Assembly: GCA_947588845.1 (NCBI GenBank)
Contig: CANQAR010000030.1
Coordinates: 1 to 39,567, forward strand
Direction of reading: 5' to 3'
DNA: 39,567 nucleotides
Source of the DNA: an uncultured Lachnospiraceae bacterium
GTDB lineage: Bacteria; Bacillota; Clostridia; Lachnospirales; Lachnospiraceae
The translations under genes were made by a program, and so were the position numbers. This document shows, piece by piece, positions 16,894-38,377 of this stretch; the first letter of the stretch is position 1; each line of letters starts with the position of its first letter. Below the pieces are notes generated by a model that had not been told where the DNA came from, ran no database searches, and saw only the letters and a list, made by a program, of their open reading frames with translations.

Positions 16894-17130
16894 TGTAAAA
16901 CCCTCTTTTCTTTCTTCTTGCTGATAATTTACCAATATTCTTTCCCGGGGTGATCCCTCATAATGCCGCTTCCGTTCTGTCCCACTCAGACCGGAAACAA
17001 TGACGTTTTCTGATCTGTTTCATTCGGCAGGGCCAGAGCCCTCTTCCCACCTTTCTCATTTGGACGGGAATCGTGCTCTTTTGCTCTGCCTCATTCAGGT
17101 CAGGAACAACTCCTGCAAAAATCCCACGGC

Positions 17131-18177: not shown

Positions 18178-18842
18178 GTCCCACCTGCCTTCCTGTTCTT
18201 GCTTTCAAGCATATTCACCGTCAGCAAAATTACCGCCGATATCACCAGATTCACCATCACCCACCGGAATGCTCCGGCCTCGTCGTTCGTCCGCCAGAGC
18301 TGATAAACCGTCGTTGATATGGTTGCTGTTCTGCCAGGCACATATCCGATCAGCATGCTGGTCGCTCCGTACTCGCCGAGCGCCCGGGCAAACGCGAGCA
18401 CAACGCCTGCCAGAATCCCCTGTCTGCAGGCGGGCATCCGGATCCTCCAGAAAATATACGTGTTGGAGAGCCCAAGCGTCTGTCCCGAGTACGCCAGCGA
18501 CAAGTCAAAGCTCTCAAAAGCTCCCCGCGCCGTCCGGTACATGAGCGGGAAAGCAACCACCGCCGAGGCCGCAATCCCGCCGTACCATGTCATCGCAAAC
18601 TGAATCCCGTACCGTGCGAGAAACATCCCGAGCGGTCTTCTGGGACCCAGCAGGATCAGCAGAAAATATCCGCAGACGGTGGGCGGCAGGACCATCGGCA
18701 GCGTGAAGATCACATCCAGCAGTCCTTTCAGGACTCTCGGCAGTTTTGCCACATAATACGCGGCGGCAATCCCCGCAAAGAACACAATCACACAGCTCGC
18801 AGCCGCGATCCTGACGGAATTCCACAATGGATACCAGTCCAT
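18174..18842 (-). CDS. modB: Molybdate ABC transporter permease
   Basis: This integral membrane protein of 222 aa has about five hydrophobic segments, beginning with SVRIAAASCVIVFFAGIAAA. It carries the EAA loop sequence AYSGQTLGLSNTYIFWRIRMP that docks with ModC, and ends ALGEYGATSMLIGYVPGRT, which is characteristic of ModB. Two copies would form the membrane channel. It is coupled to modC by a 4-base overlap and lies 298 bases after modA. The start at 18842 follows GAGGTGAG. Confidence 0.94.
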   Translation of the reverse strand: MDWYPLWNSVRIAAASCVIVFFAGIAAAYYVAKLPRVLKGLLDVIFTLPMVLPPTVCGYFLLILLGPRRPLGMFLARYGIQFAMTWYGGIAASAVVAFPLMYRTARGAFESFDLSLAYSGQTLGLSNTYIFWRIRMPACRQGILAGVVLAFARALGEYGATSMLIGYVPGRTATISTTVYQLWRTNDEAGAFRWVMVNLVISAVILLTVNMLESKNRKAGGT

Positions 18843-19140
18843 GTCCGCTCACCTCATTCTTTTCTTAACATTCCCATTGTTTCACTGCACCTGTCATTTT
18901 CCAGGTTCCGGACCATTTCATATCCCCTGAAATTCTTTTCCAGGACCATGCTGTTCTGAAATCTTGTGCCAGTGACCGAAACTGCAGAGCATGAATTTTT
19001 TCTCCTGAAATCATGCCGTTCTGAAATCTTCCAGAACCTTAGACAAAATTCGGCATTCTGGCTTGGCCTCTTCTGTCCACTCAAACTTTTGCGGTCCGCA
19101 CCTGACCAATTCCATGGCTCTCAATCACGGCAGATCCTGT
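18843..19140. other. modA-modB intergenic gap
   Basis: This 298-base gap is unusually long inside a mod operon. It holds a short direct repeat (GTTCTGAAATCTT near 18953 and again near 19019). A minus-strand frame of 76 codons ends here but has no ribosome site or recognisable domain. No terminator is evident, so modA-modB read-through is likely. Confidence 0.35.
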
Positions 19141-20094
19141 TTACTCAGTCATTGCTTCGGCCATCTCTGTCTCGGCTGCTTCTCCATCGCCAGCCGGATT
19201 CACCGGCGAGAACCCTACATTTTCAAACACAGCCATGCTCTCATCTGTCAGCAGATAATTGAGAAATTCCTGCGCCTCAGCCGCATGAGCGCTGTTCTTC
19301 ATAACCGCCGCCGGATAGATGACCTGGCCGCACATCTCGGCCATCGCATAATCCTGCACAGTCAGCCCTGCGGAGAACGCATCCGTGCAGTAGATCACGC
19401 CGCAGTCGACGCTTCCCTCCGTGATCTGCGTCGTCACTTCCTTGACATTTGTGCCGTAGGAAATCACGCCGTTCGCGGCAAGTTCTTCCTCGCTGAGTCC
19501 GTAATACTCCAGAATTTTCTGCGTGTACTGACCAACCGGCACGTCGCTGTTACCCATCGCCATCAGAATCGTCCCTTCCTCAAGCGCCTTGGCCCAGTCG
19601 TCAAACGTCTCAATCCCTTTCGGATTGTCCTCGCTGACGCACAGCGTAACCTTGTTCTCAAGCAGATCGATCCGCGAGTCCTCCAGGACAAAATCAAGCC
19701 CGTCTGTGTTGACCTCGGAATCAGCCGTGATATCGAGCTGATTCATCTGAAGCTGTCCCGCTGAGATAAACAGATCGCACGCAGCGCCCTCCTCAATCTG
19801 AGTCTTCAGCGTCCCCGATGAGTCGAAGTTAAAGACCAGTGACACGTTCGGCGCGACCGCCTTGTAAAGATCACTGATCTCCGTCAGCGTCTCCGTCATG
19901 GACGCCGCCGCGAAGACCGTAAGCTCCACTTCTTCCGCATCCGCGGCCTGCTCTGCTCCTGCGCTCTCCTCCTGAACGGCATCCGCATCAGCTGATTCTG
20001 TGCTCTCCTCAGCACCTGCCGTCAGCACCTGTCCGGACACCAGACCAAGAACTGCCATAACTGCGAGTAACTTTGAAACCTTTTTTCTTTGCAT
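19141..20094 (-). CDS. modA: Molybdate ABC transporter substrate-binding protein
   Basis: This exported binding protein (317 aa) captures molybdate or tungstate. It begins with a signal peptide (MQRKKVSKLLAVMAVLGL, then SGQVLTAGAEE) without a lipobox cysteine, followed by an acidic linker (residues about 28-55). The mature domain has the family motifs VFAAASMTETLTEISDLYK, LVFNFDSSGTLKTQIEEGA and DLFISAG. Lack of a lipid anchor is unusual for a Firmicute ModA; the protein may be retained by other means, or the start may be mis-set. It is the first mod gene after the ModE-like regulator, and has operator-like repeats immediately upstream. Confidence 0.94.
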   Translation of the reverse strand: MQRKKVSKLLAVMAVLGLVSGQVLTAGAEESTESADADAVQEESAGAEQAADAEEVELTVFAAASMTETLTEISDLYKAVAPNVSLVFNFDSSGTLKTQIEEGAACDLFISAGQLQMNQLDITADSEVNTDGLDFVLEDSRIDLLENKVTLCVSEDNPKGIETFDDWAKALEEGTILMAMGNSDVPVGQYTQKILEYYGLSEEELAANGVISYGTNVKEVTTQITEGSVDCGVIYCTDAFSAGLTVQDYAMAEMCGQVIYPAAVMKNSAHAAEAQEFLNYLLTDESMAVFENVGFSPVNPAGDGEAAETEMAEAMTE

Positions 20095-20132
20095 CTTTTC
20101 TTTCTCCTTTCTTTTTCAGAAAATATATATTC

Positions 20133-20200: not shown

Positions 20201-20219
20201 ACCTTATACAAAAAATTTT

Positions 20220-20603
20220 TTATTCGGAAGAGTCCGCGCATTTATAAGGCGGCTTGTCTCCCTCCAGTCTTCCATAGTATTTCTCTACCACACGGTCAGC
20301 AGCCTTCCAGGCCTCCCGCTCCGCCTCTTCATAGACGGACAGCAGTTTTCTCCCTTCCTCCGTAAGCTCCGACCCGTTTCTCCTCATGCGGTGAAGAAAT
20401 GTCATCCCCATGGCAGTTTCTGCATCCCGCATAATCCGCCACGCCTTGCTGTACGCCATTCCCATCTCCTGCGCCGCAAGATTCAGTGAATGGTATTTCT
20501 CCACACCATGAAGCAGATCCGCCACACCCCGGCCAAAATATTCACGAATCTCTGAATCCTTTCTCTGAATCCTGACTCTGGCTATATAAAAATAATCATT
20601 CAT
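20220..20603 (-). CDS. ModE-like winged-helix transcriptional regulator (DNA-binding domain only)
   Basis: This 127-aa protein matches the N-terminal DNA-binding domain of ModE: GRGVADLLHGVEKYHSLNLAAQEMGMAYSKAWRIMRDAETAMGMTF, with the typical LysR/ModE helix-turn-helix and wing (HRMRRNGSELTEEGRKLLSVY). It lacks the C-terminal molybdate-binding MOP domains, so how it senses metal is unclear. I chose the ATG at 20603, six bases after GGAG, over an ATG four codons earlier. It lies 27 bases after the ligase gene and before modA, bridging the ligase/radical SAM block and the mod genes. Confidence 0.88.
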   Translation of the reverse strand: MNDYFYIARVRIQRKDSEIREYFGRGVADLLHGVEKYHSLNLAAQEMGMAYSKAWRIMRDAETAMGMTFLHRMRRNGSELTEEGRKLLSVYEEAEREAWKAADRVVEKYYGRLEGDKPPYKCADSSE

Positions 20604-20629
20604 AAATGTCTCCATTCAGACAGGCTTCT

Positions 20630-21922
20630 TCAGGCCTGTCCATTTAAACTTTCCAATATCTTTCTCTTAGCCAGATAACAAGGCAAATCCCCCGCTTCCA
20701 CGCCTCTCCATGAATATGTGACAGGATAGCCATTCCAGACCTCCGGGAGACACTGCAACGAAACCGCAGAAGATCCACATGCCTGTCCGGCATCCCCCCC
20801 TGACAGCACATATCCTTCCACAAGTAAACTTCCGTCCCTCTGCGTCGCTCTGTAATCGATCACTTCCGGAAAGGAAAAAAGCAGCTCGTCCAGTTCTTCC
20901 ATGGAAATCCTTTTGTCTGTCTCCAGACAGGTTCCGCTCTCACACAAAGAATCTTCTTTTTCAATGCGCGTAACCTTATCAAGTCTGCAAAGTTCACTTC
21001 CACAGGGACACGGCTCCGAAAAAATCCGCGCGCGGTCCCCGGTACGGTACCGGATCAGGGGCATGGCATCCGCCTGTATCGTCGTGATCACAAGCTCCCC
21101 CCATTCTCCGTTGGGAACCAGAAATCCGTCTTCTCCGACAATCTCCGCAATGATATCATTCTCGCGAAGATGCATTCCCTCAAATGCAGGACAGGTCACT
21201 GCCCCTCCCATTCCCATCTCACGCGATCCGTAATGAGGATACAGCTTCGTGTGCAGGAGATTCTCAATCCCGCGCACGACAGAATCCGGACAGACATCCG
21301 CGCTGATCAGCGCCCTCTCCAGGGAACAGTCCGGCCGCATCCTCAAAAGAGACAGCAGCGGTACCGGCATTCCGACAAATGTCTGCGGCCTGTGCCGTTC
21401 CAGCAGATCCAGAAGTTCCCCGTAAGTTTTTCCGACTCCGCCCGGAACAGGTTCGGCGCCAAGACGCCTGATTGCCTCCGAGATCATTTCCCCAAGCCCG
21501 CTATGCCCTGAAAAGGGCATACAGATCAGCGTCCTCTCTCCCGGATTCACCAGTTCAGAAAGACCTGCCGCAAAAAATGAAATGGTGCGCTCATTATCCT
21601 TTTCTGAATAAAAAACCCGCTTGGCAAGGCCTGTCGTCCCCGAAGTCTCCTGCGTGCGCACACGGTCGATCTCCGCCTGACTCAGCAGCACCATTCGATT
21701 TCCAAAACGGACCATATCCTCCCCGGTTGTAAAAGGAAGCTCTGTAAGCTGCTCCAGACTTTCCAGTTTTTCCGGAAAGTTTCCGTAAAATCCGCCCCGC
21801 TTCTTTTCACGGGCAAGCAGGCGATTCAGCTTTTGCAGCTGTATTTCTTCTATATCTTTTCTTGTCAGAGAGGAACGGCCTTCTTTTTCCCTCACCCACC
21901 GATCCAGATTTGATTTTTTCAT
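20630..21922 (-). CDS. AMP-forming acyl ligase of the phenylacetate-CoA ligase type (DVU_1553-like)
   Basis: This 430-aa adenylate-forming enzyme carries P-loop TQETSGTTGLAKRVFYSE (about residues 90-107), HYGSREMG, the ribose-binding YRTGDRAR and a CPCGSELC cysteine pair typical of phenylacetate-CoA ligase relatives. Such enzymes activate a carboxylate with ATP and usually pass it to CoA. No aromatic-acid degradation genes are nearby; its partners are a radical SAM protein, desulfurase and Mo genes. From memory a homologue belongs to the DVU1551-DVU1559 neighbourhood of Desulfovibrio. The natural carboxylate is unknown: a cofactor intermediate or a product of the aldehyde oxidoreductase are both plausible. 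It starts 27 bases after the radical SAM gene. Confidence 0.85.
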   Translation of the reverse strand: MKKSNLDRWVREKEGRSSLTRKDIEEIQLQKLNRLLAREKKRGGFYGNFPEKLESLEQLTELPFTTGEDMVRFGNRMVLLSQAEIDRVRTQETSGTTGLAKRVFYSEKDNERTISFFAAGLSELVNPGERTLICMPFSGHSGLGEMISEAIRRLGAEPVPGGVGKTYGELLDLLERHRPQTFVGMPVPLLSLLRMRPDCSLERALISADVCPDSVVRGIENLLHTKLYPHYGSREMGMGGAVTCPAFEGMHLRENDIIAEIVGEDGFLVPNGEWGELVITTIQADAMPLIRYRTGDRARIFSEPCPCGSELCRLDKVTRIEKEDSLCESGTCLETDKRISMEELDELLFSFPEVIDYRATQRDGSLLVEGYVLSGGDAGQACGSSAVSLQCLPEVWNGYPVTYSWRGVEAGDLPCYLAKRKILESLNGQA

Positions 21923-21949
21923 TGCTGTTTTCCCCCGACTCAGCGTTTC

Positions 21950-23668
21950 TTATCTGTACAACGTTCTGCCCTTTATACTTGTCAGATTATATGCACAGAA
22001 CGGCACCATGCCATAGCGGCTGTCTGTCTCAAGTATATAACATCTCTTAAGACGCTCCAGATCAAGATTGTAAGCGTCCTGAAACAGCATCCCTGAAACA
22101 GCAAATGTATTGTTATGTATGTTCACAAGGAAATCATCCAGAGAAGACAGATCCAGCTGAAGCTGCGCCGTATCCTCGCCACAACAGCAGCCTCCGGATT
22201 CTTCCTCTGCCGCTTCGCCACAGCAACAGCAGCTTTCTTCTTCCGCGGCAGGTTCCGGCTCTCCGCAGCAGCTACTCTCTGTTTTTTCTTCCGCTTCTTC
22301 TCCACAGCAGCAACAGCTGCTTTCTTCTTCCGTGGCAGATTCCAGCTCCCCGCAGCAGCAGCTCTCTGCTTTCTCTTCCACTTCTTCACAGCAGCAACAG
22401 CTGCTTTCTTCTTCCGCGGCAGGTTCCGGCTCCCCGCAGCAGCAGCTCTCCGTTTTCTCTTCTGTTTCTTCTCCACAGCAGCAACAACAGCTTTCTTCCT
22501 CCACGGCAGGTTCCGGCTCCCCGCAACAGCAGTTTCCCTGTGCTCCGCTCCACTGTCGTGCAACGAACTCGCGCGCCTGCTCCGAAGAAGCTGTCGCCCT
22601 TGCCGCGGCATGCATCATTGGTTTCATGCTGCCGTCTGGCTGCCGCAGATAATTTGCCTGGAACGTACAGTAAGGATTCGTCGCATTCCCTCCGGTGAAA
22701 TGCTCTGCCCGCACAACACCGTCTGTCTGCTGTTCCATGAGCAGGAGCATCTTTGGCAGCGTGACCCGATAACTCCCCTGCTCTTCCACACATCTCCCGA
22801 AATAACTGATTGGCTGGAAATGCACGCCCCGCACATACGGCATCCGGCTCTTTGCATAGGAAAGAATCGCTCCCACCTGATCTTCATTGACCCCCGGTGC
22901 GATCACCGGCACCAGCACAACGCCGAGCCCTGCCCTGGCACAGGCATCAATCGCCGCAATTTTTTTATCCAAAAGAGGTTTTCCTCTCAGAGTCTTGTAA
23001 ACCTCATCGTTCATCCCGTCAAACTGCAGAAACACACAGGAAAGTCCCGCTTCTTTCAGCTTGTCAGCATATCCGGGTTCGTCAGCCAGACGCAGTCCGT
23101 TCGTATTCAGCTGGAAAAATGTAAAACCAATCTTCCTGCCTGTACGAATGATTTCAGGCAGATCATCCCGGACTGTCGGTTCACCGCCGGACAACTGAAT
23201 ATTAAAAGGTCCCCCGTGCTCCATCAGATACTCCATCTGCTTTTCCAGTTCCTCAAGGGGGGTATCCTGTCCCTGTTCTCCTGCACTTGCAAAACAGACC
23301 GGACAGCACAGATTGCAGCGGCTTGTCACTTCGAGAAGCACGCAGCAGCCTCTCCGTTCATGCGCCGCGCAGAGTCCACAGTCCTGCGGACACCCTTTTT
23401 CCACCTCTTTAGCGGCAGGAATTTTATCTGCCGGCTGGAGATTCTTCCCCCATGCTTCATAGCTCTCCACGGAACCTTCCCAGATCAGAGCCTCATACTC
23501 CCCATGCTCCGGGCACTTTTTTACCATGTAAATTCCATCATCCCGCACGATCTTCCTCGCCGGAATCACCTCGAGGCACTCCGGGCAGACACTTTCCGTC
23601 ACGCCAATTTCCGAAAAGTCATTTGATTTCATTTGTTCTTTCTTTGCATATTCAGAACTTTTCTGCAC
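21950..23668 (-). CDS. Radical SAM protein with a 31-cysteine repeat insert (TrsS-like)
   Basis: The 572-aa protein has N-terminal zinc-ribbon-like pairs (CPEC at 28-31, CPEH at 52-55), CPQDCGLC (93-100) and the radical SAM motif C118-x3-C122-x2-C125 (RCNLCCPVC), followed by QLSGGEPTVRDD and NTNGLR for SAM binding. Residues 380-496 are a tandem low-complexity region of CCC(C)GE(P/E)EPAAEEES type with 31 cysteines, then a conserved-looking C-terminus (LDDFLVNIHNNTFAVSGMLFQDAYN). The GTG start lies 8 bases after AAGGAG. The family resembles radical SAM proteins called TrsS in the DVU1551-1559 neighbourhood, some of which are selenoproteins (recalled, not checked). Its reaction is unknown. Confidence 0.86.
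   Translation of the reverse strand: MQKSSEYAKKEQMKSNDFSEIGVTESVCPECLEVIPARKIVRDDGIYMVKKCPEHGEYEALIWEGSVESYEAWGKNLQPADKIPAAKEVEKGCPQDCGLCAAHERRGCCVLLEVTSRCNLCCPVCFASAGEQGQDTPLEELEKQMEYLMEHGGPFNIQLSGGEPTVRDDLPEIIRTGRKIGFTFFQLNTNGLRLADEPGYADKLKEAGLSCVFLQFDGMNDEVYKTLRGKPLLDKKIAAIDACARAGLGVVLVPVIAPGVNEDQVGAILSYAKSRMPYVRGVHFQPISYFGRCVEEQGSYRVTLPKMLLLMEQQTDGVVRAEHFTGGNATNPYCTFQANYLRQPDGSMKPMMHAAARATASSEQAREFVARQWSGAQGNCCCGEPEPAVEEESCCCCCGEETEEKTESCCCGEPEPAAEEESSCCCCEEVEEKAESCCCGELESATEEESSCCCCGEEAEEKTESSCCGEPEPAAEEESCCCCGEAAEEESGGCCCGEDTAQLQLDLSSLDDFLVNIHNNTFAVSGMLFQDAYNLDLERLKRCYILETDSRYGMVPFCAYNLTSIKGRTLYR
22181..22531 (-). repeat. Tandem cysteine-rich coding repeat inside the radical SAM gene
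   Basis: About nine degenerate units of 36-45 bases encode alternating cysteine clusters (3, 5, 3, 4, 3, 4, 2, 4 and 3 cysteines) and acidic spacers such as GEPEPAAEEES and EEVEEKAES. On the plus strand it reads as repeated CAGCAGCAGC tracts. The frame is maintained throughout and unit spacing alternates between two spacer types, so the array appears to have grown by duplication of a two-unit module. Confidence 0.9.
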
Positions 23669-23719
23669 TTCTTTTTCTCCTTACTGTGAAAGCTCCGGAC
23701 GGCAGTCGTCCCGTCTTTT

Positions 23720-23995
23720 TCATCCGAGTCCGGCAAGCCAACGCTCCATCTCCTGCTTCTCGTCTTCCCAGTTTTCCTCCGTATAATTGATCTTCACCAC
23801 ATGGGCCGCGAGAATCCCCTTGACTTCCAGCGCCCCTTTTTTCGCGGAGAACACCGGACGCCGGAACTTATGATTTTCATGAATATCGAATCCTTCCAGC
23901 AATTTGGAAAGTTCACTTCCTGTGATTGGAAGCTCATATTCAAATGTCCGTGCCCCGGCAAAGCAGTTCTGCACTTTCCTGCACCGAAATTCCAT
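23720..23995 (-). CDS. Conserved-looking 91-aa protein of unknown function
   Basis: I do not recognise this family. The product starts MEFRCRKVQNCFAGARTFEY and ends with VVKINYTEENWEDEKQEMERWLAGLG; it is compact, with no signal peptide or transmembrane segment and two cysteines near the N-terminus (Cys5, Cys11). I chose the ATG at 23995, seven bases after AAGGAG, rather than an upstream ATG at 24037. It is packed between the cysteine desulfurase and the radical SAM gene, which argues that it is a real, functionally linked gene. It could be a small partner or carrier for one of these enzymes. Confidence 0.7.
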   Translation of the reverse strand: MEFRCRKVQNCFAGARTFEYELPITGSELSKLLEGFDIHENHKFRRPVFSAKKGALEVKGILAAHVVKINYTEENWEDEKQEMERWLAGLG

Positions 23996-24063
23996 TCCGA
24001 TTCTCCTTCCTTCAGAACCACAATTCAGACGCTTCATTTTTCTGCATTTAATTCAATTCCACG

Positions 24064-25206
24064 TCACGAAGATATGTCCTCTGCCATCGCGCGCACCGCC
24101 TCGATCACCACTTCCAGTTCCTCTTTTGTCGTAAACCGTGACAGACTCAGCCGCACCGTCCCGCGCGGCATCCCGATATCTTCCATGATTTCCGGCGCAC
24201 AGTGAAGTCCCACACGGCAGATTATATCGTAGCTTTCTGTGAGAATATCTCCGACATCGGCATTGGACATTCCCGGCACAGCAAAAGATACGACCGGGGT
24301 CACCGGTCCTTCCGGCAAAACAACCCTGCAACCCGCCTCCGTCAGCCCGGTCTTAATCAAATTCAGGAGATCATCCATCCGCTTTTTGTCGGCGGGATGT
24401 TCTTTGCTCCAGCGAAGCGCCGCAAGCAGTCCGTGATAAGACGGTTCATTTCCAGTACCCGCCTCCAGATGAAGCGGCATCTCCTCTGGCATATCGCGCA
24501 GATCGCTGAGTACACCCGTACCGCCGAGCAGATATGGCTTCAGGCTAAGACCCGGGCGCACATAAAGCCCGCCTGTTCCCTGCGGTCCTAGAAGATATTT
24601 GTGTCCTGTAAACGCCGCCATATCCACACCCCACTGTTCGAGCTCCATCGGAATCCAGCCAAGCGTCTGCGAAACGTCAAGCAGCACCGCAGATCCATAC
24701 TGCTTTGCCAGAGCGGTCAGCATGCGGGCATCATTCACAGCTCCCGTCACGTTCGACGCGTGATTCAGGATACAGAGCTTCGGAGCATTTTCTTTTAGCG
24801 CTTTTTCCCATGCCTCCGGCTGTACCCGGCCAAACGCATCTGCACGCAGATAGACAACGCGGACTCCCTGCTGCTCCAGACGATACAGGGGACGCAGCAC
24901 CGCATTGTGTTCCGAGCTGGTTGTCAGCACAACGCTGCCTGCCTCAAGCGGAAACCCGAAAATCCCTTCATTCAGCCCCCAGGTTGAATTACAGCCCAGC
25001 GCAATCTGCTCTGGCCACGAAACTCCCATAACCCAGGCCAGCTCTTTTCGCACTTCCTCAAACACATCAAAATCATTGATACCGCCCCGGTTCGCAGCGC
25101 CCGGAAGCTGACGCACCGCTTCCGCTATTGCCTCCGCAACCCCCGGCGCCTTGGGCCAGGAAGTCGCCGCATTATTCAGATAAATCCGTTTTTCACAGCT
25201 TTTCAC
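24064..25206 (-). CDS. Class V aminotransferase-fold cysteine desulfurase (EF2568 type)
   Basis: This 380-aa PLP enzyme should release sulfur (or selenium) from cysteine (or selenocysteine). It begins IYLNNAATSWPKAPGV, has SSEHNAVLRP, the cofactor-binding Asp/Gln pair in LLDVSQTLG, the Schiff-base lysine in FTGHKYLLGPQGTGGLY and the persulfide cysteine in CRVGLHCAP. The form matches the cysteine desulfurase subfamily named for Enterococcus EF2568, known to accompany selenium-dependent molybdenum hydroxylase genes. The GTG start at 25206 overlaps the end of the NTP-transferase gene by 14 bases. It probably feeds sulfur to the cofactor of the aldehyde oxidoreductase or to the XdhC-type factor. 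Confidence 0.9.
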   Translation of the reverse strand: MKSCEKRIYLNNAATSWPKAPGVAEAIAEAVRQLPGAANRGGINDFDVFEEVRKELAWVMGVSWPEQIALGCNSTWGLNEGIFGFPLEAGSVVLTTSSEHNAVLRPLYRLEQQGVRVVYLRADAFGRVQPEAWEKALKENAPKLCILNHASNVTGAVNDARMLTALAKQYGSAVLLDVSQTLGWIPMELEQWGVDMAAFTGHKYLLGPQGTGGLYVRPGLSLKPYLLGGTGVLSDLRDMPEEMPLHLEAGTGNEPSYHGLLAALRWSKEHPADKKRMDDLLNLIKTGLTEAGCRVVLPEGPVTPVVSFAVPGMSNADVGDILTESYDIICRVGLHCAPEIMEDIGMPRGTVRLSLSRFTTKEELEVVIEAVRAMAEDISS

Positions 25207-26311
25207 CCGTTATCACCTCAAATTCCTCTGCCAGTCCGCGGCAGATCTGCAGATCCCGCAGAATCCGCGGCTTTACATTCTCATGTGCAAGCGCTTTCTG
25301 ATACCGCTGTTCCAGTGTAACACGGCACGTTTCCCGGATCAGCTTATCCGCCAGGCAGACAATCGCAGATTCCCGGCAGATCGATATAGTTCCTTCCGAG
25401 ACAATCTCTGAAAATCCCATATGCGCCCTCACAATCTCCGCCAGCGCAAGATACCCTCTCTCTTCCAGAAAGGCCCCAGCCGCTTCGGCATGATGCGGTT
25501 CCAGCCTCAGAAGGTCATGGAGATACCCGCCGCTCCGGCAGAGTTCCACATCGAGAAACGCTCCGTGTTCCACGAGACGCTCCGCCATCCATCCTGCCAG
25601 CTCTCCTACTGCGAGACAGTGCTCTCTGATATGATTCGGCAAAGATACTTCCCTGTAAAATTCCTCGCACACTTTTTTTGAAACGCCTCTGCGCTCCTTT
25701 GCCTGCCTCTCGAGAAGTGCAAATTCTGCACGGTAATCCGCGTCGTCGGACGCATCCTCACGATCCACGACAATTTTCTCTGCCGTCAGACCTGCCAGCG
25801 CTCCGCCAAGTCCGCGTTCCCCGCCATACTCCAGCACTGCCTGCCATCCCGTCTTCAGAATAAGCGGAGGATGAATCTGCCGCAATGTTGTGCTCTGCCC
25901 GGCCGCCCTCTCTTCCACAAACGGGATCAGCGCCTGGCACCCATCCCCCAGCCGCGAGAGCCTGCCGATCATCTTCTGAAATACCACCGGGGAAGTCATG
26001 GGCACATCCGCCGGCAGGAAAAAAACTCCATCCGCACAGCCCAGTCCGGCAAGTCCCAGCCGCACAGAGGCAAACATATCGGTGGAAGCATAGTCCCTGT
26101 TCTCGACTACGGAAACATTCATGGAGGCCAGTGCTTCGCAGACTTCCTTCCCGCGGTATCCTGTCACGACTGTGATGTCCCGTATCCCGGCGTTTCTCAT
26201 GCTCTGCACCGCCATAACGACCATCGGAAACCCGTTCAGTTCCATCAGCGGTTTAAACCCATCCATCCGTCTCGAAAGTCCCGCTGCCGTAATCAATCCC
26301 GCAAATTTCAT
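25193..26311 (-). CDS. MocA-like nucleotidyltransferase fused to an HD domain (DVU_1551-like)
   Basis: This 372-aa two-domain protein has residues 1-200 as a MobA/MocA-type nucleotidyltransferase (GLITAAGLSRRMDGFKPLMEL, FLPADVPMTSP), the kind that makes molybdopterin cytosine dinucleotide (MCD). Residues about 220-370 are an HD-type domain (LPNHIREHCLAVGELAGWMAE, YLHDLLRL, HH.EA). Mop-type oxidoreductases use MCD, so the first domain fits the client at 30575-33322. The role of the HD domain (phosphohydrolase?) is unknown; proofreading or recycling of the nucleotide is one possibility. It overlaps the preceding gene by 4 bases and the desulfurase by 14. Confidence 0.88.
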   Translation of the reverse strand: MKFAGLITAAGLSRRMDGFKPLMELNGFPMVVMAVQSMRNAGIRDITVVTGYRGKEVCEALASMNVSVVENRDYASTDMFASVRLGLAGLGCADGVFFLPADVPMTSPVVFQKMIGRLSRLGDGCQALIPFVEERAAGQSTTLRQIHPPLILKTGWQAVLEYGGERGLGGALAGLTAEKIVVDREDASDDADYRAEFALLERQAKERRGVSKKVCEEFYREVSLPNHIREHCLAVGELAGWMAERLVEHGAFLDVELCRSGGYLHDLLRLEPHHAEAAGAFLEERGYLALAEIVRAHMGFSEIVSEGTISICRESAIVCLADKLIRETCRVTLEQRYQKALAHENVKPRILRDLQICRGLAEEFEVITGEKL

Positions 26312-26736
26312 CCCATCACACCGTTTTCCTGCAAAATCTCAATACATTTCGTAAAAACGCCTTCCACAATCTGCGGGCAGCGCTGCATCTTATTTGCCGG
26401 ATTTCCCTCAAGAATATCATCGCAGCGGCAGCCTCCATACTCTTGTCCGACCGCTTCTTCAAACCAGCGTACCAGTTCTGCCGTCACAGAGGACGCATTC
26501 GGATCCTCAATCTCCTCAGCCTCCCCTTTCCCCAGGAAATATCCCAGAAAACAGCAGCCGCCTGTCAGCGCTCCGCACACATGTCCTGTAAATCCAAGTC
26601 CGCCATTCAGCCCGCTCATCGCCCGTATAAGATCCGGGTCTTCTTTTCCTTCTGATTCAAGCGCCAGAATCAAAAGAATCTGCGCGCAGTAAAATCCCTG
26701 GTTCGACAATTCCAGCATACGGTCAAATAAATCCAT
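26308..26736 (-). CDS. C-GCAxxG-C-C family protein (DVU_1555-like)
   Basis: This is a 142-aa redox-type protein of the C_GCAxxG_C_C family, recognised by a lone cysteine in NQGFYCAQ, the GHVCGALTGGCCFLGYFLG core and later cysteines GGCRCDDI and RCPQIV. The cysteine pattern suggests metal binding or thiol redox chemistry; the family has no established function. I chose the ATG at 26736, five bases after GGAGG, over one at 26760 with no ribosome site. It overlaps the NTP-transferase gene (ATGA) and follows the methyltransferase by 24 bases. Confidence 0.85.
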   Translation of the reverse strand: MDLFDRMLELSNQGFYCAQILLILALESEGKEDPDLIRAMSGLNGGLGFTGHVCGALTGGCCFLGYFLGKGEAEEIEDPNASSVTAELVRWFEEAVGQEYGGCRCDDILEGNPANKMQRCPQIVEGVFTKCIEILQENGVMG

Positions 26737-26760
26737 CGCGTCCTCCTTTCCCACACTCAT

Positions 26761-27552
26761 TCAGACGGCTTTCTCAGTCAGGCAGTCCATTCTTTCCTGC
26801 TTTCCTGCCAGATCCGGTTTTTTCAGCCATGCGATAAAATATCCGCACTTTGCCCTGCCTGCCGCCCGAAAAAAATTACAGAGTTTTTCCTGTGCGTTGC
26901 CATTCCACAGGCTTTCCAGAAAAAATTCTTTCCAAAGCTCTGTTTCATCCCGCACGGCCTGAACTGCAAATCCTGAATTCCTGAAAGCTGTTTCCCAGCA
27001 TTCCCAGGTAAGCGGCCCTTCCATGGACATCGCAGGCGCATTTTTCCTTTCAAAAAAGATATCTGAAACCAGAAAATTTCCACCTGGTTTAAGCACGCGC
27101 CACGCTTCGCCCAGCGCCGCCATCCCGTCGCCGCATACGGAAATGCTGCATTCCGCAAGGCACACATCAAACACTTCATCCATAAAATCCAGCCGTGTCA
27201 TGTCCTGGCACAAGACCCATCCCGAAGTACATTCCTCAAAACGCCTTGCTGGTTTCCCAATATCCGGAGCCGTTTTGGGAACCTGAACTTTCTGTCCCCT
27301 GAAACATTCTGACAGCTTCCTCTCACATGCTCTGTCCGGCTGAGTTCTCTGTTCCCCGGAACCTCCCGCTGAATTTTCATTCGCATCAAGATCCACTCCG
27401 ACTGCCTGGAATCCCCGGCTGTCCAGATACCGCACCGATTCTCCGCTTCCTGCGCCAAGATCAAGTATCCAGGCCGGAGGCACAACATCCGATAACTCCA
27501 GAAGACGTTTTGTCAGGCTGATTCCTCCGGGATGTGATCCCATCAACTTCAT
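26761..27552 (-). CDS. SAM-dependent methyltransferase (DVU_1556/TrsM-like)
   Basis: This 263-aa class I methyltransferase has motif I ILDLGAGSGESVRYL (about residues 29-43), VGVDLD, CLAECSISVCGD at the position of motif IV and WRVLKPGGNFLVSDIF as post-motif. The N-terminus GSHPGGISLTKRLLEL is distinctive. A hydrophilic insert (about residues 58-105) interrupts the Rossmann fold after motif II. The substrate is unknown; within this operon it could be a small cofactor intermediate. It lies between the zinc-ribbon protein (22-base gap) and the C-GCAxxG gene. Confidence 0.84.
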   Translation of the reverse strand: MKLMGSHPGGISLTKRLLELSDVVPPAWILDLGAGSGESVRYLDSRGFQAVGVDLDANENSAGGSGEQRTQPDRACERKLSECFRGQKVQVPKTAPDIGKPARRFEECTSGWVLCQDMTRLDFMDEVFDVCLAECSISVCGDGMAALGEAWRVLKPGGNFLVSDIFFERKNAPAMSMEGPLTWECWETAFRNSGFAVQAVRDETELWKEFFLESLWNGNAQEKLCNFFRAAGRAKCGYFIAWLKKPDLAGKQERMDCLTEKAV

Positions 27553-27574
27553 CTTTCTCTTCTGACCTCCCTGT

Positions 27575-27811
27575 CTACTTGTCTTCCAGGCTCCGCTCCA
27601 CTGTCAGCACTTTTCCCAGAGCCAGTTCCTCAGGCACATAGATAAATCCGCAGTTCGGACAGACCGGCAGTTCCACCGGAAACGCATTTCCGAGATATCC
27701 GAAAGTCGCCCGTCCTTTGACCAGAGGAATCCCGCACTTCTGACATTTCAATTTTCCCAAAGGATCTACGGAATGATATGTCTTTTCTGACAAATGCTTT
27801 TTCTCCGCCAT
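27575..27811 (-). CDS. Small two-CxxC zinc-ribbon/redox protein (DVU_1557-like)
   Basis: This 78-aa protein has two CxxC pairs, KCQKCG (about residues 22-27) and VCPNCGFIYVPEE (about 50-62), spaced as in a zinc ribbon or rubredoxin-like fold. It may bind zinc or iron and act as a small electron or metal carrier for its neighbours. The start follows GAGGAG. It lies 26 bases after the large Fe-S flavoprotein gene and before the methyltransferase, in the same order as I recall for the Desulfovibrio set. Confidence 0.83.
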   Translation of the reverse strand: MAEKKHLSEKTYHSVDPLGKLKCQKCGIPLVKGRATFGYLGNAFPVELPVCPNCGFIYVPEELALGKVLTVERSLEDK

Positions 27812-27836
27812 AGTCTTCTCCTCACGTTTGCATTGT

Positions 27837-30308
27837 TTACTCTACCGTCATCCGGTGGCTGTAGGCTCCATGCACCAGATAACTTCCGTCGTCTGTCTCG
27901 CTGAATTTTACCCAGAACGTCACATTCCCAATCCGGGTATTCGTAACCAGCCAGCCGTTCTCCTCATCAAACACCGCGCTTCCCGTCTGCCGGTATGACT
28001 TCAGTACGTTATCGATATCGCTCTTCAGAATCATGCGCTCATCCATCAGCGCTTCCACACCGTCCGCGTAAATTACCGGAAGCATTTCTTCCATATTAAT
28101 ATCTTCCTTCCACAGTTCTTTCAGCATACGCTGTTTTAGTTTCAGTCTGTTCGCCCGTCTTGCAGACAGATCCGGTATCGGCTCTGGTGTAATCCCATAG
28201 GCAAGCTCAAGAATATGACGGCTGTCTGCCCCTGCACGCGCGAACTGATCGCGGCACGCCATACAATAAGTAAGCACCATATGCTCCGCCCGCCCTGCCG
28301 CAAAAGAGGCCTTCTTCGCGGATACTTCCGGATTCGCATACTTCACCAGACCGCCGTAGCCGCAGCACGGTGTGACATCCCTCGTAAAAGGCGCTTCCTC
28401 AATCTGATATCCGAACGCCCGGACAAACTCGCGGACTTCATCCTGCATCCTGCGGTTTCCCCGCGCTCCGCAGGCATCGTGAATCGAGACAATCCGTTCT
28501 CCGTTCGTTTTTTCTGATTCAGCTATCGGTTTTATGCCCAGTTTAAGCAAAACCTCCCAGATACCTGCAGTCGGAAGCTTTGTAAACTCTTCCAGAGTCT
28601 TTTTGCAGGTCGGACATGCGCAGATCACTTCCGGCTCTCCCAGTTCCCGCCATACCTGCGTCACTTTCTCAACTGCTTCCGCCAGGAGATCCTCACGGGC
28701 AGCCCAGTGGGAAATTGCCCCGCAGCAGCCAAGCAGAAGCCCGACGCCTCCTTCAAGCCGCTCGCAGAGATCACTGTACGCGGCCTCCACCGTCACAGGA
28801 GAGACAGCGGCAGCCTGGCAGCCCGGGAAGAACAGATAGCGGCATTTTTCAAATCCTGGCTGAGGCTTTGCCAGAAATCCTTCCCCGTTTGAAAACTGCT
28901 GATCAAGCAGCGCAAATTCATGAGCAGACGGCGGCATCTTCTGCGTCTCAACCATCGTATGTCGCGCAATCTGGCAGACATCCGGATAATCAAAACCATT
29001 CGGGCAGGCCGCTTTGCATTGCCCGCATTCATCACACGCATTGATCATGCCGTTCGCCATATGATTTCCCATGACAATCGAGAGATTATTGTAAATTTCG
29101 CGGATCGCACCTTTCGGGTTCCTCTTAAAATGCTGGAGATAAACACATCCTTTCACACATTCCAGACACTGACACTGAATACATCTTGCCGCTTCCGCAG
29201 CCGCATTCTCTTTTGTAAGAATACTGACATCCGTCACCCTGCCCAGAGCATCCGCTCCGGGGATCGCCGTGTGCAGTCTCCAGGAATCTTCCGCCGTCTT
29301 CTCTGTGCTATTCTCTCTGTTTTGAATTTCCGGTCCGCTCCTGCCGCCCAGACCGTCAATCCCGTCCATCGTCACATACAGTCTGCTCTCATGGACTTCC
29401 GGCTCCTTCACGTCATCCAGCGAAACGCCCTGCATATATCTGTCCGCAAGAAGAGAGGCATGTTTTGCAAAAGCCAAAAGCCACGCCGGATCCGTCTGTG
29501 ACGGCGCTGTAAAAGCATTTGGGATCTTTTTGTATCTGTCTGTCCACAACTCCGGCGAAATACACATGGTATCCGCTTCCTGAGCCCATTTTTCAATTTC
29601 TTCAAAATCGGGAATTTCCTCTTTCCCGCTCACAAGCCTGTCGGCACCCGCTGCTTCTTCTGACTGTTCCCCGGACATCTCCTTACGTGTAATCCGAAAT
29701 CCGGTGAATGCCGCCAGATCACTCTTAGCCTCCTGTTCTGTCAGTCCCCGCTTCATCAGCGGCTCCTGCATGGATCCACAGTCTGTATGCCACCAGATCT
29801 CATAACCCTTTTTGCCGAGTTCCCAGCAGCAGGCCAGCGCAAACAGATCATTGCCGACAACCGCCACACGTTTATTCTTCCTTGGAATCATAAAACGGCT
29901 CATCGCGCCGGAACCGCCATACAGCGCGCAGGCTTTCTCAATCGCAGGCATGGATATCCCGTCGCTCTGGCATACGGATTCCGTTGTTCCATCCAGATCC
30001 TTCGATGCAGATGTTTCCCCACCCGGCTTTGCAAGCGTACACTTTCCAATACAGTTTCCACTGCAGCTGCCTGCCAGCAAATGCAGAAACGGAGTCACCG
30101 CGCGAATTAACGCAGCCGCTTTTGAGAAATTTCCTTTCGCCGCATAACCGCAGATCCCCCTTATGTCAAGATGCAGAGGACAGGCTGCCTGACAGCCCGG
30201 AGGTTCTTCCCTCGTACAGACGCGTTCCCGCTCATGCAGTTCCTCCTGGCCGAAGGCCTGCTTCATCAGATAATGCTTTCCCACAAACGTATTTTCTTTT
30301 TTCTCCAT
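27837..30308 (-). CDS. Fe-S flavoprotein with GltD-like N-terminus and HdrD/GlpC-like CCG domains (DVU_1558-like)
   Basis: This 823-aa multidomain redox protein opens with a GltD-like Fe-S region (GCQAACPLHLDIRG and GSCSGNCIGKC), followed by a Rossmann segment (KRVAVVGNDLFALACCWELGKKG). A two-cluster ferredoxin region follows (CIQCQCLECVKGC; CDECGQCKAACP), then two CCG domains (FFPGCQAA...LGCCGA...CACPTCKK and HDACGARG...CCGYGG...YCMACRDQ), which bind the noncubane cluster in HdrB-type proteins. A C-terminal 75-residue domain is unassigned. I chose the ATG at 30308, six bases after GGAG. It probably relays electrons from the aldehyde oxidoreductase to an acceptor. The FAD site is weak: GxGxxA is altered to VGNDLF. 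Confidence 0.85.
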   Translation of the reverse strand: MEKKENTFVGKHYLMKQAFGQEELHERERVCTREEPPGCQAACPLHLDIRGICGYAAKGNFSKAAALIRAVTPFLHLLAGSCSGNCIGKCTLAKPGGETSASKDLDGTTESVCQSDGISMPAIEKACALYGGSGAMSRFMIPRKNKRVAVVGNDLFALACCWELGKKGYEIWWHTDCGSMQEPLMKRGLTEQEAKSDLAAFTGFRITRKEMSGEQSEEAAGADRLVSGKEEIPDFEEIEKWAQEADTMCISPELWTDRYKKIPNAFTAPSQTDPAWLLAFAKHASLLADRYMQGVSLDDVKEPEVHESRLYVTMDGIDGLGGRSGPEIQNRENSTEKTAEDSWRLHTAIPGADALGRVTDVSILTKENAAAEAARCIQCQCLECVKGCVYLQHFKRNPKGAIREIYNNLSIVMGNHMANGMINACDECGQCKAACPNGFDYPDVCQIARHTMVETQKMPPSAHEFALLDQQFSNGEGFLAKPQPGFEKCRYLFFPGCQAAAVSPVTVEAAYSDLCERLEGGVGLLLGCCGAISHWAAREDLLAEAVEKVTQVWRELGEPEVICACPTCKKTLEEFTKLPTAGIWEVLLKLGIKPIAESEKTNGERIVSIHDACGARGNRRMQDEVREFVRAFGYQIEEAPFTRDVTPCCGYGGLVKYANPEVSAKKASFAAGRAEHMVLTYCMACRDQFARAGADSRHILELAYGITPEPIPDLSARRANRLKLKQRMLKELWKEDINMEEMLPVIYADGVEALMDERMILKSDIDNVLKSYRQTGSAVFDEENGWLVTNTRIGNVTFWVKFSETDDGSYLVHGAYSHRMTVE

Positions 30309-30410
30309 TATGATCTCCATATACTGCTGTCCACAGTTTTGCGCGGCGCAGAATTATCTGAAAACAATAGCGCCCATATATCTTTTTTTGAGAATAAATG
30401 CAGGTAAAGA

Positions 30411-30448
30411 AAGAGGTGCCGCAACGTGAAGCCTCTGCAACACCTCTT
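30411..30448 (-). terminator. Bidirectional terminator hairpin between mop and the downstream operon
   Basis: AAGAGGTG (30411-30418) pairs with CACCTCTT (30441-30448) around a 22-nt loop. On the minus strand it is followed by TCTTTA-type sequence. It lies 127 bases after the mop stop, so most mop transcripts should end before the Fe-S flavoprotein gene. Confidence 0.6.
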
Positions 30449-30574
30449 TAATTATATCACAATTGCAGCAAAACGCCAGAATTTTCAGGTTTTCGCCCAA
30501 AATTGCTGTTTGCGTTGTTACTGTTCACTTCCCTGCAGGCTGTAACCACCCGCATTTCGCGAAGCTTTATTGGA

Positions 30575-33322
30575 TCAAAGTGCGTCGATCGCCGCTTTGA
30601 CTGCCTCCGGAAGCGCCGGGATTCTCGTGATACGTGCGCCTGTCGCGTTGAAGATTGCGTTCAGGATTGCCGGATGCGGAGCGGCCAGCGGGCCCTCGCC
30701 GCAGCCTGCAGCGCCGTACGGTCCAAGTGGACGCGGATGATTCTCCTGATAGATCAGTTCGATGTCATCCGGAATGTCGTTCGGATAAGAGATACCGCAC
30801 TTCTGCAGCGTCGTATGTTTCTTCAGATCCTCGAAGTCCTCAGTCAGAGCAAGGCCGATGCCCTGTGCGATTGCACCCATAACCTGTCCGTCAACAACGC
30901 TCTTGTTGATGATCGTACCAAAGTCGGATACCATCGTGAACTTGATCACCTTCACCTTACCGGTTGCCATCTCAACGCGGACTACCGGAAGGTTGATGCA
31001 GTACATGTAAACTGAGAACGGATTGCCCTGTGCTGTCTCCATATCGCAGTCTGAGCATGCCGTAGCAACCCACTTGCCTTCATACTTCAGCGGAATATTC
31101 TCCGCCTTCATCTCATCATAGGTGCGGAAGCTGCCATCCGGCTTCTTCATCGCATTGATCAGCATCTCGCAGGCAACGCGCGTCGCGTTTCCGGTCATGA
31201 CGTTCGAACGTGATCCGCCTGCCGGGCCGGAGTTCGGAGTAAGGCCTGTATCATTCATGACAAGCTTAATCTGATCCGGTGTGATGCCGGCCTGACGCAG
31301 TGTCTCATGCGCATGAGTCAGCGTACCGATATCAGCGCCCTGTCCATGATCTTCCCAGGAGTTGTAAACTGTCACGGTTCCGTCAGCGTTCAGCTCTGCC
31401 CATGCTTCGGAAGAATCAACGCCGTCAAGACCGCAGCCATAGATACCAAGAGATACGCCGACACCATATTTATACTTGCCGTCCTCACCCTTCGTTGCAT
31501 TCAGTTCTTCCACATACGCCTTGTTCTTCTGATAGTACGGACGTGCCAGATCAAAAAGATCCTCAAGGCAGTATACATCCGGCTTGCAGCCGTTCGGAGT
31601 TGTGGAACCAGCGGATTCCTTGTAGCAGTTCATTGCGCGGAACTCGAACGGATCGATTCCCATCTTGGCCGCCATTACATCCATTGCAATGTCGCCGCCC
31701 ATGAAGGACTGCGGAGCACCATAACCGCGGAATGCGGCGCCGTATGCATGGTTCGTGCAGACTGTTCTGGAACGGTTGCGGATATTCGGAATATCAACGC
31801 CCGCGCCTACGAACTGGCTGAGACGCATGGTCAGCAGATCGCCGAACTCAGAGTACGGACCATGATCGATCAGGTTGTCGCCTTCGAGAGCAAGGATCTT
31901 GCCCTTCTCATCAGCAGCGAGCTTGATGTGCATGAAGCCCGGGCTTCTCTTTCCTGTGTAGGTGATCATCTGATACATATCAAAGTTCAGAGCTACCGGA
32001 CGGCCTGTCACGAGCGCCGCGACACCTACCAGAGCCTCGATTGTCGGAGAGAACTTATAACCAAACGTACCGCCTGTATGGAGCTGTACGATGCGGAGCT
32101 TCTCAGGCTCAACACCGATACCAGCGCAGATCATCGCGTGATGCAGATGGATACCGATGGATTTGGAGTGGATCGTCAGACGGCCCTCTTCATCCATGTA
32201 TGCGTAAGCAACATCCGGCTCGATCGGCAGATGCGGCTGACGTGAGCAGTAAGAATCGATCTCGACGACATTCGGAGCGCTCTCCATGATCGGAGCTGTC
32301 TCGTCGCCCTTGATGCAGTTCGTCTCGTAGTAGACATTCGGTGTGCCCGGATGAATCTCGATTGCGTCGGGAGCCATGGCTTCCGGAGCGGACATGTAAG
32401 CCGGAAGAACCTCAAGGTCTACCTTCACTGCCTTTGCCGCTGCTTTCGCGTGTTCTACCGTATCCGCACAGACCATCGCGATTGCGTCGCCATACTGGAA
32501 CACCTTCTCGTCGCAGAGGATCGGACGATCCCAGCCGTCGCCCTTGTTCGTCGGGAATGTGATAAGGCCCGTGATTCTGTTCTTGCCCGGAACATCTTTA
32601 TACGTGATAACCTTGGCAACACCCGGCATCTTCTCCGCTTCTGAAGCGTCGATGCCTTTGATCAGAGCGTGGGAAACTTCCGCCTGTACCAGAGCGATCT
32701 GGAGCGTATTCTCCGGCAGAGTCTTGATTTCGTCAGCGCCGAAATCCCATGCTCCGGTAACCTTCGCAATGCCTGACGGACGTGCATATGTTGTGCCGAG
32801 GATCTTGTTGTCTGTCGGAACGAACATCAGATCTTCCTTGCTCATCTCACCGCGCATTACCTTTGCAGCATCCATGACTGCGTCAATAAGCGGCTTATAA
32901 CCGGTGCAGCGGCAGAGATTCCTGTTCTTGTTGAACCAGTCGCGAACTTCCTCTCTCGTCGGAGACGGATTGTTCTCAAGAAGCACTTTCGCGCTCATGA
33001 TAAAGCCTGGTGAACAGAAACCGCACTGTGCACAGCCGTGAGCTACCCACGCAGCCTGCAGCGGATGCAGGTTATCCAATGTGCCGATACCCTCAATCGT
33101 CTCGATCTTCGCGTTATCCGGCACCTTTGACATCTTTGTGATACAGGAACGCGTCACCTTGCCGTCCATAATAACGTTGCAGGCGCCGCAGTGGCCCTGA
33201 CCGCAGCCAATCTTACAGCCTGTCAGAAGCAGTCTGTCGCGCAGTACCTGAGCCAGCGTCTCATTACCTTCCAGAACGAGAGTTCTGGGCGTGCCATTGA
33301 TTATGAGTGGTTTCTTAATCAT
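30575..33322 (-). CDS. mop: Mop-type molybdenum aldehyde oxidoreductase (single subunit, MCD cofactor)
   Basis: This 915-aa xanthine-oxidase-family enzyme oxidises aldehydes to carboxylic acids. Two [2Fe-2S] domains occupy the N-terminus, with ligands Cys40, 45, 48, 60 and Cys100, 103, 137, 139, the same numbers as in the 907-aa Desulfovibrio gigas Mop. No FAD domain intervenes; the Mo domains begin near residue 190. GGTFGYKF is the cofactor-binding loop and GCGEGPLAAPHP holds the catalytic glutamate (Glu876, equivalent to Glu869 in D. gigas). It starts after AAGGAGG and is transcribed toward the maturation-like operon. The Mo ligand could be sulfur or selenium; sequence does not decide. Substrate is unknown. 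Confidence 0.95.
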   Translation of the reverse strand: MIKKPLIINGTPRTLVLEGNETLAQVLRDRLLLTGCKIGCGQGHCGACNVIMDGKVTRSCITKMSKVPDNAKIETIEGIGTLDNLHPLQAAWVAHGCAQCGFCSPGFIMSAKVLLENNPSPTREEVRDWFNKNRNLCRCTGYKPLIDAVMDAAKVMRGEMSKEDLMFVPTDNKILGTTYARPSGIAKVTGAWDFGADEIKTLPENTLQIALVQAEVSHALIKGIDASEAEKMPGVAKVITYKDVPGKNRITGLITFPTNKGDGWDRPILCDEKVFQYGDAIAMVCADTVEHAKAAAKAVKVDLEVLPAYMSAPEAMAPDAIEIHPGTPNVYYETNCIKGDETAPIMESAPNVVEIDSYCSRQPHLPIEPDVAYAYMDEEGRLTIHSKSIGIHLHHAMICAGIGVEPEKLRIVQLHTGGTFGYKFSPTIEALVGVAALVTGRPVALNFDMYQMITYTGKRSPGFMHIKLAADEKGKILALEGDNLIDHGPYSEFGDLLTMRLSQFVGAGVDIPNIRNRSRTVCTNHAYGAAFRGYGAPQSFMGGDIAMDVMAAKMGIDPFEFRAMNCYKESAGSTTPNGCKPDVYCLEDLFDLARPYYQKNKAYVEELNATKGEDGKYKYGVGVSLGIYGCGLDGVDSSEAWAELNADGTVTVYNSWEDHGQGADIGTLTHAHETLRQAGITPDQIKLVMNDTGLTPNSGPAGGSRSNVMTGNATRVACEMLINAMKKPDGSFRTYDEMKAENIPLKYEGKWVATACSDCDMETAQGNPFSVYMYCINLPVVRVEMATGKVKVIKFTMVSDFGTIINKSVVDGQVMGAIAQGIGLALTEDFEDLKKHTTLQKCGISYPNDIPDDIELIYQENHPRPLGPYGAAGCGEGPLAAPHPAILNAIFNATGARITRIPALPEAVKAAIDAL

Positions 33323-38299: not shown

Positions 38300-38377
38300 T
38301 TTTTTGCCCGGGATTGATATATTATTAAATTAAATTTTTATTATTGGTTTTTGTTCTATTCATGGAGGTGTCTCATT

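Follow-up and report, generated by a model that had tools for sequence, protein, structure and literature searches.

Since 1995 the aldehyde oxidoreductase (AOR) of Desulfovibrio gigas has served as a structural model of xanthine oxidase enzymes; its cofactor is described as a pyranopterin cytosine dinucleotide (accessible parts of PMC10223205). The catalytically competent enzyme carries an oxo ligand; it stands out by having oxo instead of sulfido, and inactive preparations have to be activated (accessible parts of PMC3877041). The accessible passages on the D. gigas and D. desulfuricans AORs treat the enzyme alone: 'operon' and 'gene cluster' occur nowhere in the accessible text of PMC10223205, and 'radical SAM' (S-adenosylmethionine) nowhere in that of PMC4287179. 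Here, the enzyme was considered in its operon context, starting from a 39,567-nt stretch of DNA (contig CANQAR010000030.1 of an uncultured Lachnospiraceae bacterium), referred to as the window. All position numbers refer to this whole window. At 20630-33322 it holds a mop gene, encoding a relative of D. gigas AOR, followed by nine genes that include a Tes-like radical SAM gene (TrsS).

A second described relative is Tes itself (GDGT-MAS), for which the ligands of the rubredoxin iron, of the N-terminal and radical SAM clusters and a labile Met of the C-terminal cluster have been published; bacterial Tes homologues were left open in the accessible text of that paper (PMC9433317). Five NCBIfam models carry the names DVU_1551, 1553, 1555, 1556 and 1557, so these families were already represented among the curated database models, and most proteins of the set have a curated name. 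A literature search, with subscription papers outside its scope, found no functional study of the gene set; two D. vulgaris papers list DVU_1559 in tables in their accessible parts. By the present analysis, D. gigas AOR is placed in a conserved operon with a Tes-family radical SAM enzyme.

Conservation of the gene set and its linkage to Mop

TrsS loci were collected by a scan with a TrsS alignment, and the best 80 named loci of a longer list were analysed (the 80 listed loci); 40 of these had complete 10-kb flanks (full-flank loci). Gene families in the relatives' loci were assigned by custom profiles rather than NCBIfam models, open reading frames (ORFs) were called mechanically, and many contigs were short pieces of metagenome-assembled genomes. 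A few loci were duplicated (97 TrsS rows were 95 distinct, 80 zinc-ribbon rows 77 and 87 Mop rows 84). Co-occurrence was determined in 249 genomes of the Bacillota, the phylum of the window, and in 149 genomes of one Desulfovibrio family. In the latter, 97 genomes matched the D. gigas Mop query, of which 95 were retained after two weak fragments (G279, G324) had been dropped; Mop copies were counted at at least 55% identity to the query. NCBIfam scores are given as bits / curated cut-off.

Both the neighbourhood survey and the co-occurrence in the two genome samples supported a conserved functional unit around Mop across phyla, as proposed by an earlier, sequence-only reading of the window. 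By host name (phyla assigned from the genus), the 80 listed loci belonged to Bacillota, Desulfobacterota, Chloroflexota, Pseudomonadota and Acidobacteriota. They shared, with variations, the order Mop, dicluster-binding oxidoreductase (Diclust), zinc-ribbon protein (ZnRib), methyltransferase, C-GCAxxG protein (CGCA), TrsS and AMP-dependent ligase. The most frequent neighbouring pairs were TrsS-ligase (72 times), Diclust-ZnRib (67), ZnRib-methyltransferase (54), methyltransferase-CGCA (49), Mop-Diclust (47) and CGCA-TrsS (45); the order was partly variable, e.g. in Desulfosporosinus. Besides TrsS, which was present in all 40 full-flank loci by construction, these held Diclust (40), the ligase (39), Mop, ZnRib and the methyltransferase (38 each), CGCA (36), XdhC (30), a MocA-like nucleotidyltransferase fused to an HD domain (NTP-HD; 28), a MoeA-like gene (16), a cysteine desulfurase (7) and a 91-aa gene (2). 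The families were therefore not widespread without a Mop. The Desulfovibrio set named in the sequence-only reading was likewise recovered: the five DVU-named models match in the window, and the set was present in the Desulfovibrio loci sampled. Distance correlations calculated over 43 loci were 0.79 for Mop-Diclust, 0.77 for TrsS-ligase and 0.59 for Mop-TrsS; all ten pairs lay between 0.52 and 0.79, and 0 of 999 permutations were as high.

The core of the proposed nine-gene set thus recurred; the desulfurase and the 91-aa gene did not belong to it. Apart from the window, only 4 of the 80 listed loci (L084, L085, L100, L129) had the two together beside TrsS, and a sulfur donor as part of the core was rejected on the full-flank counts given above. 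A search for the 91-aa gene in 49 genomes (25 with the cluster, 24 lacking it) recovered it from four, all in the first group; the gene had no NCBIfam or Pfam match at E<=0.001. The pair is an optional extra. An XdhC-like gene, described earlier as lying elsewhere, was indeed found apart from the cluster in the window; 47 of the 80 listed loci held an XdhC-like gene. A MoeA-like gene adjoins mop in many relatives. Among ORFs without a profile, solely a phosphatase and a regulator recurred in more than seven loci. The phosphatase, a CobC-like histidine phosphatase of the alpha-ribazole type, was present in 24 of the 40 full-flank loci and had no match in the window. A PAS/sigma-54 type activator (type judged by eye) lay near the cluster in 25 loci, e.g. 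L099:2-1687.

Mop and TrsS were nearly inseparable. Among the 249 Bacillota genomes, TrsS exceeded its cut-off in 15, Mop in 17 and both in 14 (Fisher p 3.6e-19, with genomes treated as independent and kinship ignored, as also below). In the one genome with TrsS alone (G076) the Mop was cut by a contig end (L051), leaving a partial match under the cut-off. The three genomes with Mop alone comprised G072, with a TrsS cut at the contig start (L018), G083, with a weaker TrsS relative, and G207, in which no strong TrsS match was found. In the Desulfovibrio-family sample, Mop was found in 95 genomes, TrsS in 90 and both in 89 (Fisher p 2.5e-32). Of the six genomes that appeared to have Mop alone, G361 and G373 had TrsS adjoining Mop after all (L205, L207), G385 and G397 were cut by contig ends, and G289 was a fragment at a contig start; the sixth, G314, is considered below. 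Mop was not seen in 24 of the 80 listed loci, mostly on short contigs. A genome search for nine of these yielded a Mop over the cut-off elsewhere in six, matches under the cut-off only in G256, and no Mop in G253 and G259. Weaker Tes/TrsS-like radical SAM genes, with no Mop in the fetched stretch, were noted in L080, L081 and L201 (Bacillota G186, G105) and possibly have other functions.

All eight genomes of the Desulfovibrio sample with two to three Mops and TrsS had one TrsS match; in G398 a stop lay inside the second Mop match. Nine second-copy Mop loci (L220-L228) were without Diclust, ZnRib, ligase and TrsS, and seven of them had an iron alcohol dehydrogenase beside Mop. Two further loci, L190 and L200, retained the MoeA-like gene (L200 also NTP-HD) without the remaining set. 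Together, these loci indicate a maturation sub-module separable from a TrsS sub-module. The copy numbers suggest that the TrsS sub-module serves in trans, in which case the extra Mops would use its product. As a separate observation, L220-L226 hold a second Mop type (about 1459-1510 bits, custom profile), beside the iron alcohol dehydrogenase and without cluster genes, within the Desulfovibrio family.

Comparison with D. gigas AOR and with Tes

The window Mop was 59% identical to D. gigas AOR (542/915) and matched PDB entries 1dgj with 1259 bits and 1sij/1vlb with 1227 bits. The NF045668 match spanned residues 2-912. The domains Fer2 and Fer2_2 (two [2Fe-2S]) and MoCoBD_1/2 were recognised, and the catalytic Glu region GxxGxGE aligned with that of D. 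gigas. Genome G277 was taken as D. gigas, as its Mop matched the crystallised AOR at 100% identity across 206 residues. Its locus (L186) held, in a row, the MoeA-like gene, Mop, Diclust, ZnRib, methyltransferase, CGCA, TrsS, ligase, XdhC and the phosphatase. Since D. gigas mop thus lies in the same operon type and its product is described with an ordinary molybdopterin cytosine dinucleotide (MCD) and an oxo ligand, the comparison argues against a modified Mop cofactor. The operon yields no visibly changed Mo cofactor in D. gigas, and the earlier proposal of a new cofactor or ligand in Mop found no support; the D. gigas cofactor may carry a labile ligand. Selenium-dependent molybdenum hydroxylases belong to the same enzyme superfamily, and their systems have XdhC-like and desulfurase-like genes, as here. 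They differ in that the window Mop stayed below the cut-off of TIGR03311 (416.1/830.45).

The TrsS profile matched the Tes/GDGT-MAS structure 7tol (MJ0619) with 410.9 bits, and the window TrsS was below the cut-off of the Tes model NF045702 (330.6/450). Fifteen Tes metal-ligand positions were kept in 95-97 of the 97 TrsS rows, and all of them in the window; the radical SAM motif CX3CX2C (C103/C107/C110) was present in 97 of 97 rows including the window. C320, C438 and C453 are predicted ligands of the C-terminal cluster. TrsS therefore resembles Tes in the rubredoxin motif CX2C..CX2H, the CX3CX2C..H cluster, the radical SAM motif and the likely C-terminal cluster ligands. It differs in being shorter in the C-terminal region, where Tes has ~30 extra residues, in a linker with CC pairs and in its linkage to Mop. 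A CC pair between C320 and M422 was found in 84 of 97 rows. In the window, the linker contains 31 cysteines encoded by 87-bp tandem repeats (array at 22221-22532, minus strand); a Consotaella TrsS (L161) has 12 cysteines there, also with expanded CC pairs.

TrsS is given as a selenoprotein family in the accessible part of a review (PMC13188914), which cites Haft and Tolstoy 2025. The window TrsS was a single open frame with no selenocysteine stop, and no stop inside TrsS matches over the cut-off was reported in either genome sample (249, 149). SelD was found in 20 of 20 cluster genomes of the first set, and in 15 of 15 Bacillota genomes with TrsS over the cut-off vs 151 of 234 others (Fisher p 0.003). 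Selenium dependence was rejected despite this enrichment. Of the 40 genomes with TrsS loci, 7 gave no SelD match, among them Pleomorphomonas koreensis and Acetobacterium dehalogenans, both isolates; selenium is therefore not required.

Proposed function and alternatives

The favoured reading, a tentative one held at a probability of about 0.37, is that of a Mop-dedicated unit composed of maturation genes, an Fe-S relay and a TrsS sub-module whose shared product would probably be a redox mediator. Judged from their family membership, the MoeA-like, NTP-HD and XdhC-like proteins, together with molybdate transport, would assemble the ordinary cytosine-dinucleotide cofactor and see to its insertion. 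NTP-HD is likely the MCD cytidylyltransferase; with such a role it is consistent that NTP-HD was the only MocA-like match (E<=1e-8) in 3 of 25 genomes (that of the window, G000, and G260 and G310). Diclust would accept electrons from Mop, an enzyme without a flavin of its own. Its domains are a GltD-like 4Fe-4S N-terminus, a 4Fe-4S dicluster and CCG (Pfam Fer4_20, Fer4_17, CCG). In loci that had been selected mainly for the cluster, it adjoined 77 of the 84 distinct full-length Mops; it was absent from 9 of 13 loci fetched later for second-copy Mops. An electron-transfer route, raised in the sequence-only reading, is thus plausible. ZnRib, encoded beside Diclust, would probably dock on the complex via its invariant C-terminal tail. 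TrsS, the PaaK-like ligase, the methyltransferase and the C-GCAxxG protein would provide, in trans, one shared product for working Mop. This product would most likely be a small redox mediator or acceptor dedicated to Mop, and not a changed form of the Mo cofactor. Pyrroloquinoline quinone and mycofactocin serve their dehydrogenases and gave the analogy for a mediator; iron-guanylylpyridinol cofactor biosynthesis, with a radical SAM enzyme, a nucleotidyltransferase, a methyltransferase and an adenylating enzyme, was also considered. Conservation, gene order, co-occurrence, copy number and conserved metal ligands are observed results; the product and any reaction are predictions.

Several observations weigh against this reading. 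Common descent of the species accounts for part of the distance correlations. A single TrsS per genome would fit equally well with a pathway dedicated to the cluster's own Mop alone. In Bacillota genome G042, each of two Mops is accompanied by a TrsS of its own; two TrsS loci (L083, L085) are present in Sporomusa sp. KB1 and two TrsS matches each in G258 and G263, and extra Bacillota Mops (L229-L231) carry parts of the set. In G263, moreover, no Mop match was found in the genome, and in G314, whose two Mops are accompanied by XdhC and NTP-HD, no TrsS was found in the 18 kb seen. The window Diclust is without the Rossmann glycines that its relatives retain in conserved columns. In vitro, flavodoxin accepted electrons from D. 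gigas AOR (accessible parts of PMC10223205), so a special mediator is not required there; the same text calls flavodoxin no more than a putative physiological partner.

Alternatively, the whole unit could be one metabolic pathway in which the ligase activates the acid formed by Mop, or a precursor, as an adenylate (acyl-AMP) or coenzyme A thioester (acyl-CoA), and TrsS and the methyltransferase carry out carbon chemistry. The best PDB relatives of the ligase are phenylacetate-CoA ligases, and at least 92% of 84 aligned sequences retain its adenylation motifs and C-terminal Lys. TrsS has a C-C coupling enzyme among its relatives and adjoins the ligase with the frequency given above, and 7 of the 80 listed loci contain an iron alcohol dehydrogenase. 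This route is nevertheless doubtful. The hosts are as diverse as sulfate reducers, acetogens, Anaerolineae and alphaproteobacteria, nothing outside the profiled families recurs in more than seven loci except the phosphatase and the regulator, and the extra Mops of the Desulfovibrio sample do without the set. A role for ZnRib as a LysW-like carrier or scaffold, in which the ligase would load the -LEDK tail for processing by TrsS and the methyltransferase, was judged unlikely. LysW is a small zinc-ribbon protein with the invariant C-terminus EDWGE. ZnRib shares this general build and differs in its tail, which was exactly EDK in 75 of 77 distinct sequences and EEK in the other two; in a chosen alignment 32 of 32 ended in K. 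A C-terminus fixed in this way points to docking or loading, and docking accounts for the same facts. The family (DUF7479) was restricted to 17 of the 249 Bacillota genomes, namely 16 of the 17 Mop genomes and G076, and an adenylating ligase is conserved in the operon. Set against this, the LysW model gave 12.8/75 for one relative (L090) and no listed match for the window copy, neither fold nor sequence searches grouped ZnRib with LysW, and the ZnRib model was of low confidence (predicted local distance difference test 65.7) with no Foldseek match at E<=0.001.

A more specific scheme joins the carrier to the mediator: the ligase would acylate the -LEDK tail, TrsS would join or functionalise carbon in a Tes-type reaction, and the methyltransferase would finish a new redox mediator, either released or kept on the protein, dedicated to Mop. 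It is distinctly unlikely. That TrsS and its partners modify the Mo cofactor or a ligand within Mop is quite improbable: the near-strict co-occurrence of Mop and TrsS would fit, as would the oxo ligand of D. gigas AOR and the activation of inactive samples noted at the outset, but the enzyme from the same operon type contains ordinary MCD in crystal structures (accessible parts of PMC10223205). TrsS could finally be a Tes-like coupler for membrane-spanning lipids, with Mop acting on fatty aldehydes. Its closeness to GDGT-MAS and the shared metal ligands agree with this; the score below the Tes cut-off, the extra C-terminal residues of Tes and the near-strict linkage to Mop make it highly improbable.

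The window locus

The nine tightly packed same-strand genes reported after mop were confirmed. Together with mop they lie on the minus strand (33322-20630), with gaps of at most about 70 nt or small overlaps; the widest spacing, 254 nt, separates mop from Diclust. NCBIfam models covered seven of the nine genes after mop, five over the cut-off (including ZnRib) and two under it; the desulfurase was matched solely by a general model. Of the nine models of the NCBIfam TrsS/DVU_155x set (NF045645, NF045646, NF045663 to NF045669), six were over the cut-off in the window. Compared with this set, the window adds the desulfurase with the 91-aa gene and the Cys-repeat linker of TrsS, has XdhC apart and with an unusual domain order, and gave no match for the phosphatase. 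The same-strand run extends past 20630 into ModE-like, ModABC-like and MoeA-like genes (15862-20615).

Table 1. Features of the window with positions, strand and best matches (bits / curated cut-off).
Feature	Position	Strand	Match or remark
Mop, xanthine oxidase family aldehyde oxidoreductase, 915 aa	30575..33322	-	NF045668 1581.7/1100
Diclust, 'pyridine nucleotide-disulfide oxidoreductase/dicluster-binding protein'	27837..30320	-	NF045663 722.5/530
ZnRib, DVU_1557 family redox protein / DUF7479, 78 aa, CxxC..CxxC, C-terminus -LEDK	27575..27811	-	NF045645 92.3/60; PF24292 90.2
Methyltransferase (MTase), DVU_1556-like, SAM-dependent	26761..27552	-	NF045667 148.3/155, just below cut-off; Methyltransf_11
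CGCA, DVU_1555 family C-GCAxxG-C-C redox protein	26308..26760	-	NF045669 169.7/103
NTP-HD, MocA-like nucleotidyltransferase + HD domain fusion	25193..26311	-	NF045665 259.9/315, below cut-off
Cysteine desulfurase-like pyridoxal phosphate enzyme, accessory	24064..25206	-	TIGR01977 305.6/377, below cut-off
91-aa orphan 'Small', accessory to desulfurase	23720..23995	-	alternative start gives 105 aa
TrsS, Tes-like radical SAM enzyme	21950..23668	-	NF045646 565.7/490
Ligase, DVU_1553 family, PaaK-like, AMP-dependent	20630..21922	-	NF045666 338.9/300
ModE-like regulator	20220..20615	-	weak ModE_repress match 31.3/98.5
ModA, ModB, ModC-like molybdate transporter	17131..20094	-	modA, modB over cut-off; ModC-like below
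MoeA-like molybdopterin-binding protein	15862..16935	-	MoCF_biosynth
XdhC family AOR maturation factor-like protein	38351..39409	+	NF045664 273.9/350, below cut-off

In the window XdhC-like protein the Rossmann domain XdhC_C precedes XdhC_CoxI; the usual order is XdhC_CoxI before the Rossmann domain. Two XdhC-like ORFs in succession were seen in L084-L086. The window's genome holds, at the start of a different contig, a further Diclust fragment (G000:C34:153-1999, L254), whose GAGLSGLA motif is intact, and a second ZnRib ending in -LEDK (L251). Upstream of mop, a protein at 34138-35178 (minus strand) has two stretches of HbpS-like domains. An IS200/IS605-type TnpB-like protein is encoded at 13650-14744 (minus strand; 419.8/425, with a subfamily model over its cut-off). 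At 5013-7202 and 128-2260 (both minus strand), formate dehydrogenase alpha with an in-frame TGA in CARI-stop-HAPS was noted; SelB lies near, SelD is present in the genome, and the TGA is predicted to be read as selenocysteine.

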